Program-made: the position numbers and the translations under genes
Assembly: GCF_028275115.1 (NCBI RefSeq)
Contig: NZ_JAQCNH010000055.1
Coordinates: forward strand, 1 to 64,000
Direction: 5' to 3'
DNA length: 64,000 nt
DNA from: Halorientalis sp.
GTDB lineage: Archaea; Halobacteriota; Halobacteria; Halobacteriales; Haloarculaceae
Shown here: positions 22,120-27,092 of the stretch, one piece after another
Position numbering within the stretch: the stretch's first letter is position 1
Layout: the number at the start of each line of letters is the position of its first letter
Notes under the pieces: generated by a model
Seen by the model: the letters and a program-made list of their open reading frames with translations, nothing else
What the model was told of the DNA's origin: nothing
Databases searched by the model: none

Positions 22120-23133
22120 TCAGTCCAGCGCGTCCAGTAGTTCGCCAGCGCCGAAGCGGACGGGGTCGGTCGCCGGCGCGTCGATGGCCGTCGCGTACTC
22201 TATCACCGCCCGATTTGCGTCGGCGTCGTCCAGCCCACTCGTGTCCAGCGAACCGGCGGCGACGGTCGTATCCGCGACGGGGGCTGCCAGGTCTTCGTAC
22301 AGTGCAGCGACCTCGGAAAGCGGTGGGATCTCGACGGACTCGTAGCCGTGAATCGCCTCGCGGCCGGCTTCGTGACAGCAGACCAGCGCGTCCGGCATCG
22401 CCCCGTGGAGGATACCACACGTCACCGCCGAGTAGGCGGGGTGGACGACCGACCCCTGTCCCTCGACGACCAGCAGGTCGTGGTCGTCGCCGCGCTCGCG
22501 GACCATCCGCTCGACCGCGCCCGCGACGAAGTCGCTCGGAACGCGGTCGACGACGACCCCCCAGTTCGCTAACAGGACACCGGTCTGGCCCGTCGGGACC
22601 AGGGCGGCGTCGAGTCCGCGCTCGCGGGCGGCCGCGACGAGTTCGGCGCTCGTGGTCATCTTCCCGGTCGAACAGTCGGTGCCGACGGTCAACACCACCT
22701 CGGCGTCGACCTCGTGGGCGCGGCCCTCGCTGACGGTGCAGTCCTCGAGTGGCCGGCGCAGGTCCCGGAGTTCCGCGCCGTGTTCGTCGGCGAGTGTGGT
22801 GAACTCCTCGTCGTCGCCGAAGAAGTAGTGCAGCCCCGAGAGAACGTCACAGCCGCGTTTGATGGCCCTACGCACGTCGGGCCGCCAGGACTCGTCGAAA
22901 TCGCCGCCGACCGGGGCGACACCGACCACCAGTGCGTCCACCGGGTGGGGCACGTCGTCGATACCCGCAACGATGGGGGCGTCCTGTCCGTCCGAGAGGT
23001 GGTCGCTGACGCGCTCGCCGGCGCAGTCGCGGTCGAGGACGGCAGTCACATCGTACTCGGCGTATCGGAGGACGCCGACGGCAGTCTTCGCGCGGTCGGG
23101 GAACCGCTCGTGTGCGAGAACGGCGACGTTCAT
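22120..23133 (-). CDS. DUF1611 family NTPase-like protein (DgcN-like)
   Basis: 337 residues beginning MNVAVLAHERF at 23133. It has an N-terminal Rossmann-like part and a P-loop-like LTVGTDCSTGKMTTS at about residue 155, then VVEGQGSVVHPAYS and CCHEAGR segments characteristic of DUF1611. Some members were shown to acetylate D-glutamate (DgcN) next to a racemase/DgcA gene; no such neighbour is present here, so the substrate is open. Confidence 0.88.
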   Translation of the reverse strand: MNVAVLAHERFPDRAKTAVGVLRYAEYDVTAVLDRDCAGERVSDHLSDGQDAPIVAGIDDVPHPVDALVVGVAPVGGDFDESWRPDVRRAIKRGCDVLSGLHYFFGDDEEFTTLADEHGAELRDLRRPLEDCTVSEGRAHEVDAEVVLTVGTDCSTGKMTTSAELVAAARERGLDAALVPTGQTGVLLANWGVVVDRVPSDFVAGAVERMVRERGDDHDLLVVEGQGSVVHPAYSAVTCGILHGAMPDALVCCHEAGREAIHGYESVEIPPLSEVAALYEDLAAPVADTTVAAGSLDTSGLDDADANRAVIEYATAIDAPATDPVRFGAGELLDALD

Positions 23134-23209
23134 GCGGAGATGCTCGGTCGGCCGGGCAATAAACGCTGACACCTGGGGATTTTTGTATCAATATTACATC
23201 ACTCCGGGT

Positions 23210-24538
23210 ATGCGCCGTCTGACGACAGCGCTCCTGGTGGGGGGCGTGCTGGTACTCACACTCGTCGCCACGCCGGCGGCGGGCGCACAGTCCGCGGCCG
23301 ACAGGAACGAGACGGTCGTCGGCGTCGAAGTCGATACCTGGGCCGTCACGGGTATCACCATCGACGGGAATACAACGGAGCAGACCCGTCAAAATGTGGC
23401 CACCAACCTCAGTATCCCGGCCGACAACGTCCTGTTGCAGCCGGCGAACGGTACGGCCGAGGTGTTCGGTGCCAACCTGACGACGGCTACTATCGCAGAC
23501 GGGTTCGCCGCGACCGGTTTCTCGCCGAACGCGGTGCGTCGAGGGGCCACCGACCGCACGCGGGCGACCGTCGTCGGCATCCTACAGGCCAGACTCGAAA
23601 CGAGTGGAATCAACGCCACCGCAAGGACGGTCACCGTCGACGGGATTCCACACGTCGTCGTCACGGGCACGAACCGGACCGCGGTGGGTGCGATTCTCCA
23701 GAACCAGGGGCGGGTCGAGGTCCTCGCACGCTACCCGGTCACGGAAGACGACCGGACCGTCTACCGTGAGCGGAACATCCTCTCCAACGAGGACTTCGTC
23801 CGCGTCGGGCCGGCGGCGGCGAGTCGCCCCTTCACCAACCGGCCGACCGTCGAGGTGTTCCTCGACGTCGAATCGGCGCGTGCGGCCGCCGAGACGCTAC
23901 AGCGTGCCGGCTTCACCGACGACGGCGTCACGGGATGCCCGGACGACGCCGCCGAAAACCCCGGCGAGGCAGAGGGGTACTGTCTGTTCACCGTGTTCAA
24001 CGGCGAGGTCGTCTCCGCGAGGTCGCTGGGCGGGGGTCTAGCCTGGGCGATCAACTTCCAGGAGTACGAGGAGGACCCCTCGGTCTTTCTCATCGCCGAG
24101 TCGATAGACGAGGCCAGACAGCTGTCCGCGACGCTCCGGAGTGGTACGTTCCCGGTCCCGCTGTCGGTCACGCCGCTCTCCGAGTCGGTCAGAGACGCCG
24201 CACTGGAGACCGGGAGCGAGTCGGTCGACATCGGGACGGTCGGCGAGCCGACCGACACGCCTATCAATATTCGGACGCCCGAGACGCCTGTGAGCGTCGA
24301 GACGCCCAGTACACCCGCGAGCGTCGAGACGCCCGGTACACCCGCGACCGACGCTTCCGTGAGCGAAGACCCGGCCGACGTGACCACGGCTGACACGGCC
24401 GGAGCCGACGAGTCGACCGACGGCTCGACCGGAACGGTGACCGTCACCGACGCGAGCGGACCCGGCTTTTCCACGGCGACGGCACTGGTCGCGCTGACTC
24501 TCGCGGTCGTGTCGTTGCTCGCCGCGCGGCTCAGATAG
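23210..24538 (+). CDS. SecD-ectodomain-like surface protein with PGF-CTERM-like anchor
   Basis: 442 residues. Residues 1-26 are a signal peptide ending AAGAQS. The body lines up segment by segment with the large extracytoplasmic (P1) domain of haloarchaeal SecD: a VVGILQARLETSGI helix, an ILQNQGRVEVLARYP strand-helix, ILSNEDFVRVG, a two-Cys hairpin ending GYCLFTVFNGEVV, then DEARQLSATLRSGTFPVPLSV. The six-helix SecD membrane domain is absent. Instead there is a Thr/Pro/Glu-rich stalk and a C-terminal SGPGF-hydrophobic helix-Arg tail like an archaeosortase (PGF-CTERM) signal. A TATA element lies at about 23184-23195. Probable role on the cell surface in export or folding is inferred only. Confidence 0.8.
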   Translation: MRRLTTALLVGGVLVLTLVATPAAGAQSAADRNETVVGVEVDTWAVTGITIDGNTTEQTRQNVATNLSIPADNVLLQPANGTAEVFGANLTTATIADGFAATGFSPNAVRRGATDRTRATVVGILQARLETSGINATARTVTVDGIPHVVVTGTNRTAVGAILQNQGRVEVLARYPVTEDDRTVYRERNILSNEDFVRVGPAAASRPFTNRPTVEVFLDVESARAAAETLQRAGFTDDGVTGCPDDAAENPGEAEGYCLFTVFNGEVVSARSLGGGLAWAINFQEYEEDPSVFLIAESIDEARQLSATLRSGTFPVPLSVTPLSESVRDAALETGSESVDIGTVGEPTDTPINIRTPETPVSVETPSTPASVETPGTPATDASVSEDPADVTTADTAGADESTDGSTGTVTVTDASGPGFSTATALVALTLAVVSLLAARLR

Positions 24539-25418
24539 TGCGTAACTGCACGGTCCAGAAGTCCCGGAACGCGTCCCTCAACGCGGGTTCCGGGTCCCCG
24601 GTTGCGTCGACTGTGGCTGTCACGTCCGCGACCGTCGAGAACTCCGGGAGGACCGTGCGCTCGCCGACGACGTACAACGGGTCGGTCGTCCGCTCCTCCA
24701 GGGCCTCCAGACAGCGGTCGAGGTGTGAGTCGATCTGTTCGTCGCGGAGTCGCTCGAACCGGGCCTGCGAGAATCCGCCTTTGGAGTGCTGGCTCGTGAG
24801 GGCCGAGTCAAACCCGTGGAATGCGGTTCGCTCGCGTCCGGCGTACTCGCCCATGGCGAACAGGTCCGACCGGACCAGCGCGAGGGTGAACGACTCGCGG
24901 GGTGTGAACCACGACCGGGCCAGTTGGAACCCGTCGTCCCACTCGACGAACGGGTCGGGCGGGGCCGGCGTGGAGAGCGTCGCGCTCACGAGGCCGGCGT
25001 CGTCGGTCACTGCGAGGCAGGGCGCGGCCTCGGCGACCAGCGTCGCACGTCCAGCGAAAGCGTCCCGCACCGCGTCGGGCGGGTCGTCGGCAACGTAAGC
25101 CGTCAGCGCACCCTCCGGGTCGGTCTCGACGGAATCGAGACGGTCCAGCACCGCAGTCAGCCGGTCGTCCTGGAGCCGTTCGCGTCGGCGGTAGTCGAGT
25201 GATGCCTCCGCGCTGTCGAGGCGCTCGACGGTGCCTTCCAGATCGGCGATGCGGTCTTCGAGGCGGTTGGCCCGCTCCTGGGCGTCCTGGCGGGCGCTGG
25301 CGGCGTCGGCGCGCCGCTCCTGCTCGGCCTCGAGTTGTCGCTCAAGGTGACGCTTCTCCTCTTCGAGTTCCTCGATTCGGTCTTTGAGTTCGGCACGCCC
25401 CAGCAACTCGTCGAGCAT
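24531..25418 (-). CDS. Vms1/ANKZF1-like peptidyl-tRNA release factor
   Basis: 295 residues. The first 80 or so residues are a coiled coil (LKDRIEELEEEKRHLERQLE). The rest matches the archaeal eRF1-domain-2-like family related to yeast Vms1: a SQHSKGGFSQARFERLRDEQ loop supplies the GG...Q element that cleaves peptidyl-tRNA. In eukaryotes Vms1 frees stalled chains from 60S subunits in ribosome quality control. ATG 25418 is preferred to the preceding GTG. The 3' end overlaps the SecD-like gene by 8 bases, tail to tail. Confidence 0.8.
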   Translation of the reverse strand: MLDELLGRAELKDRIEELEEEKRHLERQLEAEQERRADAASARQDAQERANRLEDRIADLEGTVERLDSAEASLDYRRRERLQDDRLTAVLDRLDSVETDPEGALTAYVADDPPDAVRDAFAGRATLVAEAAPCLAVTDDAGLVSATLSTPAPPDPFVEWDDGFQLARSWFTPRESFTLALVRSDLFAMGEYAGRERTAFHGFDSALTSQHSKGGFSQARFERLRDEQIDSHLDRCLEALEERTTDPLYVVGERTVLPEFSTVADVTATVDATGDPEPALRDAFRDFWTVQLRTI

Positions 25419-25445
25419 CACCGGAAAGGACGGTGGGGAGAGGGC

Positions 25446-25838: not shown

Positions 25839-26129
25839 GCTATATGATGACAGGTACCACATCAGCGTAAAAAAGTCTTGGCCAGAGCGCTTATATCGTC
25901 GCGTTTTCGGCGGCCTTCGAGCCTGACAGACGGGTTCCGGTGCTGATATCGGGACGGACGGCCGGTGGCGCCGCCGGTTACGACGGAGCCGCTCGGAGTT
26001 CCATCCAGGCTCGGCAGCAGAGCAGGCCGTGTAAACGCTATTGGACGGTCTGGAGTCGTGAGAGAGGCGAGTGAACAGTGAGGACGGGTGTCCGCTTTTT
26101 TCTGCGTTACGGGAGTAGAGACGTTCAGT
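25839..26129. other. Divergent promoter region
   Basis: 291 bases separating the DUF5802-like gene (minus) and the secreted coiled-coil gene (plus). It holds the T-rich TATA element of the minus gene at 25867-25875 and a T-rich tract near 26095-26103 upstream of the plus gene. I see no further gene. Confidence 0.5.
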
Positions 26130-27092
26130 ATGAGTGCGCATGGGACGCCGCTGGTCGCAATCGCCGCCGTGGTTGGCATCGCGCTCGTCGCCGTTCCGGT
26201 AATCGGTGCCGTCGGTAGCATCGCGCCGGCGAGTGACGGAGCGGGAGCCGTCCAGGCGAACGGGACCGACAATGCGACGGCCGATACCGCGAGTCTCGGG
26301 ACCCGGATCTCGTCGTTCATGCAGGCGAGCACTGTGGAGGCCGACAGCTCCGTCGAGGCGGGCATGTGGGCCGCAGAGTACAACCGGACGGACAGCAGCG
26401 AGCGGCCGGCCGTCGTCGAGTCCCGAATCGATCGGCTGGAGCGCCGGAGTGAGCGGTTACGCGACCGGATGTCGCGACTCCAGTCGAGACACGAGAACGG
26501 CACAGTCCCGCGGGTCGCCTACAGGGCACAGGCGAGCAGACTCACCGCAGAGCTGGGCGCGCTCGACGAATCAATCAACGAGACGAGTGACAAGGCACAG
26601 AGTGTCGGCGTGAACACGTCCCAACTCGACCGGCTCAAGACAGAGGTACGGAACCTGAGCGGGCAGGAAGTCGCGGCCGTCGCGCAGGACCTCGGCGTCG
26701 GCCGGCCAGACCACGCCGGCCCGCCCGACGACGTGAGTTCGTCGAGAAACACGACGGGCGACGACCAACCGGGGCCGCCGGACGACCGGGGACGGAGCAG
26801 CGACCGACCGGCCACCGATGCGGACGACTCCTCGGCGGTCGGTGACTCGACGGGCAACAGGGACCCGAACAACAGCGAGCGCGACGGGTCCGGTGCGGAT
26901 GGCAGCGAGGGCGGTGTCGGCACCGACGGAGCGGGCGATACCGCTGAGCGCGCGGCCGACGATGGTGGAGGGACGGAAGACGACGCTGACGACACTCCAG
27001 GCAGGGGCAGTTCCGAGAACGACGAATCGGACGGCGGCCAGAACGGCCGTTTCGGCGGCGGAAACGGTGGCGGCCCGCCTGGTCGGAGCTGA
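26130..27092 (+). CDS. Secreted coiled-coil protein with acidic/Gly-rich tail
   Basis: 320 residues from ATG 26130. Residues 1-36 are a signal peptide or anchor (TPLVAIAAVVGIALVAVPVIG). Residues about 70-190 are predicted helical coiled coil (RIDRLERRSERLRDRMSRLQSR). The last 130 residues are low-complexity Asp/Gly/Ser/Glu, ending GGGNGGGPPGRS. No sorting motif is visible. Such proteins are widespread in Halobacteria and uncharacterised. An HTH regulator follows 46 bases downstream. Confidence 0.78.
   Translation: MSAHGTPLVAIAAVVGIALVAVPVIGAVGSIAPASDGAGAVQANGTDNATADTASLGTRISSFMQASTVEADSSVEAGMWAAEYNRTDSSERPAVVESRIDRLERRSERLRDRMSRLQSRHENGTVPRVAYRAQASRLTAELGALDESINETSDKAQSVGVNTSQLDRLKTEVRNLSGQEVAAVAQDLGVGRPDHAGPPDDVSSSRNTTGDDQPGPPDDRGRSSDRPATDADDSSAVGDSTGNRDPNNSERDGSGADGSEGGVGTDGAGDTAERAADDGGGTEDDADDTPGRGSSENDESDGGQNGRFGGGNGGGPPGRS

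Follow-up and report, generated by a model that had tools for sequence, protein, structure and literature searches.

A SecD P1 domain cut loose from its membrane part and recast as a stand-alone surface protein is very probably what is encoded by an ATG-started open reading frame of 442 residues in the window, the window being the whole stretch of 64,000 nucleotides of Halorientalis DNA that was analysed. The most likely reading of its function, to which a probability of about 45% is assigned, is that a lipid-tethered and unpowered SecD head captures emerging polypeptides. From its N-terminus the protein consists of a predicted signal peptide, the P1 domain at about residues 34-321, a stalk rich in Thr and Pro, and a tail of the PGF type; the features are located as follows.

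23210..24538, + strand: gene for the stand-alone SecD P1 surface protein (442 aa, coordinates including the stop codon)
23180..23188, + strand: TTTTTGTAT box, a candidate TATA box 22-30 nt before the ATG, with a putative promoter role
23210..23287, + strand: predicted signal peptide, residues 1-26 (MRRL...PAAGA), recognised by eye; helix 4-16 in a low-confidence model
23309..23707, + strand: P1 base subdomain, residues 34-166, eroded, with 14 of 38 SecD-conserved positions kept
23708..24139, + strand: P1 head subdomain, residues 167-310, with 33 of 38 SecD-conserved positions kept, counting the rest of P1 to residue 321
23936..23983, + strand: two-cysteine hairpin, Cys243 to Cys258, a probable disulphide
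24140..24172, + strand: closing segment SGTFPVPLSVT, residues 311-321 (AGxxPxxL in SecD), placed by SecD alignments
24212..24424, + strand: Thr/Pro-rich stalk, residues 335-405, hypervariable
24458..24535, + strand: candidate PGF-type C-terminal sorting signal, residues 417-442
22120..23172, - strand: divergent neighbour, a DUF1611 protein (PF07755, PF17396), left border of a shared slot
24531..25421, - strand: convergent neighbour, a VLRF1-like release factor (PF18859), right border of the shared slot

The first-pass annotation had held that the protein follows the P1 domain of haloarchaeal SecD in order, and profile searching bore this out. The landmarks it named align in order to the SecD of the same genome, and the NCBIfam model of archaeal SecD (NF006215) matches residues 45-322 at profile positions 69-349 of 522 with an E-value of 1.8e-40, scoring 139 bits against a whole-protein cut-off of 666, while the genome's own SecD reaches 667.1. 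Direct BLASTP comparison with that SecD gave 37% identity over 248 columns (E 8e-41), and in a pairwise profile-profile comparison the head segment of four sequences matched ten haloarchaeal SecD heads at E 1e-36. The Pfam model of the head, PF22599 (SecDF_P1_head), matches residues 181-316 below its cut-off (E 0.023), and it appears to be weak for this clade, because the genome's full-length SecD likewise falls short of it (15.9 against 27 bits).

Searching of the PDB sequences with phmmer yielded no SecD and two unrelated matches at E 1.4, so that the link to solved structures comes through the fold. In the Foldseek search of the PDB with the full AlphaFold model, SecDF chains took ranks 1 to 8 (best 3aqo, E 9e-6) ahead of an unrelated match at E 0.03, and a model of the domain alone (pLDDT 56) again placed eight SecDF chains first, the next match standing at E 0.087. 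The full model is of low confidence (mean pLDDT 53, with the P1 blocks mostly at 50-82), as both models were built on only four sequences, and the TM-scores are low (0.20-0.29 by query length), for which reason the Foldseek ranking alone was used.

The proposed loss of the SecD membrane domain was equally upheld. The NF006215 match ends at residue 322, beyond which only the stalk and the tail follow, and no match to SecD_SecF_C (Pfam) was found in the protein, against 45.7 bits for the genome's own SecD. At the start of P1, where SecD bears GG-T(R), which we take to be the motif following TM1, the SecD-conserved columns are mostly replaced (G to E34, R to V36, R to G38 and P to E40), T35 being kept. 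The protein is thus not counted as a member of SecD, since the membrane domain was searched for and is lacking. A search for secD and secF elsewhere in the genome recovered a complete SecD (G000:C123:15258-16844) and an adjoining SecF (SecF_Halo, 444.6 bits against a cut-off of 420).

The stalk had been recognised correctly at the first pass, and the tail was confirmed in part. PGF is visible by eye and GPGF is invariant across four aligned Halorientalis proteins, but the tail scored alone against TIGR04126 reaches 13.2 bits with a cut-off of 24.5, and no PGF_CTERM match was listed in the whole-protein NCBIfam search; the tails of two relatives exceed the same cut-off (28.4 bits in G004 and 30.2 bits in G097). 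All seven other genomes of the genus encode archaeosortase A (ArtA), and a search of the draft assembly to which the window belongs (92% complete) did not recover it, perhaps owing to an assembly gap, so processing of this protein by ArtA is an inference. The wall anchoring originally suggested did not stand. In haloarchaeal S-layer proteins, as described in an excerpt of PMC8875312, C-terminal processing by ArtA adds a lipid and PGF anchoring is to membrane lipid, and the window protein would accordingly be tethered to the membrane rather than to the wall.

Upstream of the gene, the position of the T-rich box suggests a leaderless transcript. Close variants of TTTTTGTAT stand at a similar distance before the ATG in the eight Halorientalis copies listed and in the H. 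regularis copy, and the box was not seen in the three g43 copies listed. Within the stretch coding for the signal peptide lies GTGGGGGG (23237-23244), which the window contains once where 3.19 occurrences would be expected; the copies of H. pallida, G003, G005 and G006 retain it as well, making five with the window. In the H. regularis copy (L033 5970-6060) the G run of the signal peptide is one base shorter and the frame is shifted, which may reflect a sequencing error, decay or phase variation.

The protein had been presented as a single stand-alone SecD head; such a head it is, but it is one of many. Among 392 genomes of the order with a completeness of at least 85%, SecD heads without the membrane domain were found in at least 44, covering 22 genera and 7 families, and the heads in further Halorientalis and other haloarchaeal genomes rule out a curiosity of one genome. 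These 44 derive from 46 genomes with two or more matches, two of which (G093 and G094) were dropped because both pieces lay in one SecD frame, and the frames of the remaining 44 were read; the count is a lower bound, as few candidates were scored per genome (3 in one survey, 10 in the other). No stand-alone head of any form exceeded the threshold in the other 348 genomes.

Several forms can be distinguished. In the first, that of the window protein, P1 is preceded by a signal-like stretch at the N-terminus and followed by a tail of PGF type. The second consists of the head only (about 215-242 aa) with a signal peptide and a PGF tail, in g44 (6 genomes) and g88 (4 genomes); head-only forms recur in two families other than the window's own. 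Lipobox versions retaining the Cys pair occur in three genomes (G001, G143 and G021), and one frame (G275) contains the head with no readable signal at its start. The third form is a diverged head lacking the Cys pair, by eye, after a twin-arginine lipobox signal (loci L178-L197); both signs were seen by eye in all 20 copies read, and 18 of the 20 hand-copied starts satisfy a strict lipobox pattern. Nine of these copies, when aligned, matched the stand-alone heads with the Cys pair at E 3.8e-25 and SecD heads at E 5.5e-18 (pairwise profile-profile comparison), and two of the proteins (from L178 and L181) matched NCBIfam SecD models at E 2.3e-9 and 3e-7, with no match to the Pfam head model. 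Of 27 aligned heads outside the third form, H. pallida and H. regularis included, 21 end in PGF and 23 in PGF, AGF or LGF; the rest are three lipobox types without a tail and one SGF. Two anchoring signs, the PGF tail or the lipobox, are therefore carried by the same SecD domain in different copies, and either would place it outside the membrane. Neighbours of the head-only and lipoprotein forms are shared mainly within genera, and nothing Sec-like was recognised by eye in the 26 largest clusters.

The pattern of retained positions distinguishes the two halves of the domain. At 76 columns kept in at least 75% of 51 SecD rows, divided equally between the head half and the base half, the window protein retains 33 of 38 in the head as against 14 of 38 in the base (p 1.3e-5). 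The same preference (p<0.1) was observed in 15 of 18 stand-alone P1 rows with gaps counted as losses and in 14 without the gapped columns, failing in G021a, G444 and G190, and the Cys pair is invariant in all 69 aligned rows (51 SecD and 18 stand-alone). These alignments suggest that the coupling of the head to a membrane engine has been released while a SecD-like constraint on the head is retained. By the NG86 method, which is crude in GC-rich genes, comparison of the window gene with five Halorientalis copies placed dN/dS at 0.31-0.48 in P1, 0.54-1.21 in the stalk and 0.26-0.59 in the tail. Among the controls, SecD P1 gave 0.24-0.35 in four pairs; with five pairs each, the membrane part of SecD gave 0.06-0.16, the release factor 0.15-0.18 and DUF1611 0.18-0.30. 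The stand-alone P1 and the tail are under purifying selection, and P1 evolves faster than SecD's own P1.

Within the genus, which includes the named relatives H. regularis and H. pallida, a full-length SecD match is present in all eight genomes and at least one extra head in seven, none being found in G007; in G003 and H. pallida two heads follow one another in tandem, and the second has lost the N-terminal portion of its base. In six of the eight the head gene is placed between the divergent DUF1611 gene and the convergent VLRF1-like gene. The same slot recurs in g43 (G097-G099), g10 (G156), g15 (G021) and g3 (G009), making five genera in all; DUF1611 is displaced by roughly 0.8 kb (G005) or 1.6 kb (G156), and only the right border was found in G028 (g3). 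A profile of 27 stand-alone heads searched against 28 release-factor loci found the head in two, both already known (G021 and G156), with no match at the other 26. The slot looks empty in G007 and several others, as judged by eye from an antisense frame marking DUF1611 that ends near the release factor. In the window the slot includes no Sec gene. Regarding its surroundings, the release factor (24531-25421, - strand; PF18859, E 4.5e-30) was found in 28 of 30 haloarchaeal genomes searched and is possibly an archaeal ribosome-rescue factor, and a secreted-looking protein with an Asp/Gly-rich end (26088-27092, + strand), which weakly matches DUF7096 below its cut-off (E 0.0055), adjoins an ArsR-type regulator. 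Two genomes of g43 (G097 and G099) each possess two full-length SecD matches besides the stand-alone head.

The faster evolution of P1 means that a changed ligand also fits, and this constitutes the main rival to the capture of emerging polypeptides: the head fold might have been exapted as a surface receptor that binds some other external target, such as a peptide, a surface protein, an ion or a neighbouring cell, with no part in export. The hypervariable stalk, the patchy presence, the very diverged lipoprotein forms without the Cys pair and the slot devoid of Sec genes agree with such a receptor, which we hold to be possible if somewhat doubtful, but the selective retention of SecD-conserved head positions speaks against it, as does the neighbourhood in G001. 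In that genome secF-secD is immediately preceded, on its own strand, by the gene of a lipobox head that stops 97 nt short of secF, and this gene order offers the best hint that such heads may take part in late export or folding. A motif within the intervening 97 nt recurs before secF in the window's genome, so secF in G001 may keep a promoter of its own, and among the relatives seen this is the only one in which the head is linked to secFD.

The origin of the family was addressed with a quick tree that joined 51 SecD rows to 18 rows of stand-alone P1, of which two lack part of the base. The copy in G190 is sister to the SecD of that genome (SH-aLRT 100) and that in G444 likewise (98), and the starred branches require no fewer than three changes. 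The AU test rejected one common origin for all 18 rows (p 1.1e-9); it presumes a group named beforehand and was applied to a tree with four long end branches. One clade was not rejected for the 10 Halorientalis rows (p 0.66), nor for 14 rows comprising Halorientalis without G001, g43, g10 and g15 (p 0.48), the two g3 copies being outside the tree. Heads have probably been detached more than once, and the lineage of the window may represent one old gene. A mobile or viral origin was considered and received no match in plasmids, phages or viral contigs, the contigs having been searched with one, insensitive, peptide pattern.

Repeated origin, fast evolution, apparent placement outside the cell and the same fold under SecD-like constraint would also agree with a decoy or regulator: the detached head might compete with SecD/SecF or cap them, or it might sequester some agent directed at the head of SecD, for instance a virus protein or a halocin. 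We regard this as unlikely; no such agent is known to us, and no head-like match emerged from phages, plasmids or viral contigs (the last with that single peptide pattern), in searches aimed at the head rather than at an agent of this kind. That the genes are merely decaying secD duplicates without function is quite improbable, for while the head is dispensable and fast-evolving, the H. regularis copy is frameshifted in the G run of its signal peptide and the G275 start lacks a readable signal, dN/dS stays below 1 on P1 and the tail, the box before the ATG is conserved, the slot is kept in five genera and nearly all copies read have open frames with a signal and an anchor sign.

The preferred reading thus remains capture by a tethered head. 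According to an excerpt of PMC9508474, bacterial SecDF is thought to set its periplasmic domain above the SecYEG exit, and P1 to matter for the proton-dependent transport of precursors; a portion of PMC8669966 marks a hydrophobic pocket in the SecD P1 head. In the proposed mechanism, the P1 domain freed from the SecDF motor would be exported by its own signal peptide, after which archaeosortase A would cut the PGF tail and swap in a lipid, leaving the folded head on a flexible Thr/Pro stalk at the outer face of the membrane. The head would then grip, as in SecD, unfolded polypeptide leaving SecYE or awaiting folding, and prevent back-sliding and aggregation as a passive ratchet or holdase, with no proton-driven stroke. 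The lipid anchoring, the polypeptide binding and the role in export are each presumed for the window protein. This reading is favoured by the SecD homology and fold, the head kept over the base, the recurrence of head-only forms, the invariant Cys pair, purifying selection, the shared slot, the secF-secD neighbourhood in G001 and the two anchoring signs. Against it count the faster evolution than SecD P1, the slot without a Sec gene, the sub-cut-off tail, the ArtA not found, the three of 18 rows in which the head-base contrast fails and the possible promoter of secF in G001; the gene is moreover dispensable, as it is absent from G007 and no head passed the threshold in 348 of 392 genomes.

On a broader and tentative view, the head of SecD would have been severed from the motor on more than one occasion in haloarchaea and fixed to the cell surface through either of two sorts of lipid anchor, the heads forming an unpowered, ATP-free layer that holds polypeptides and assumes some of the work of late export or folding outside the membrane. 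That the same domain apparently came away more than once and bears two sorts of anchoring sign makes a useful function seem likelier than an accident. 'SecDF P1 head subdomain-containing protein' is a protein name in use at NCBI, and such proteins may exist in bacteria. The domain, the anchor and the parts of the pathway are known; no published stand-alone SecD head was found in the open-licence literature searched, nor was a motor-free head apparently outside the membrane, in several forms and seemingly of more than one origin, met there. To our knowledge, little is known of the helpers of protein folding outside the archaeal cell. Archaea are described in an excerpt of PMC2910488 as lacking SecA. 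Should emerging chains prove to be bound by the detached heads, what the head contributes in SecD could be told apart from the effect of the proton-driven stroke, which is a general question of SecDF.

Compared with archaeal SecD (NF006215, PRK08343), the window protein shares the P1 base and head in the same order, the Cys pair and the identity to the genome's own SecD given above, but it has no membrane domain, most of its GG-T(R) start is replaced, a signal peptide stands in for TM1, and the stalk and the sorting tail are added. The P1 domains of bacterial SecDF (PDB 3aqo, 3aqp, 5xan, 5xap and 5yhf) furnish the best fold matches of both models; in SecDF, however, protons passing through the membrane part drive the movement of the head, and the window protein, without such a drive, would lack any proton-driven stimulation of export. 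With PGF-CTERM proteins such as the haloarchaeal S-layer glycoproteins (TIGR04126, substrates of archaeosortase A), it appears to have in common a signal peptide, a Thr-rich stalk, PGF, a hydrophobic stretch and a basic end, differing in that its cargo is a SecD domain and its tail scores below the TIGR04126 cut-off. As far as we know, the SurA family is unrelated to SecD heads. By analogy only, the proposed job resembles that of periplasmic chaperones at the Sec exit such as SurA (PMC9987972), which, as the tethered head might, hold chains exiting the translocon without ATP.
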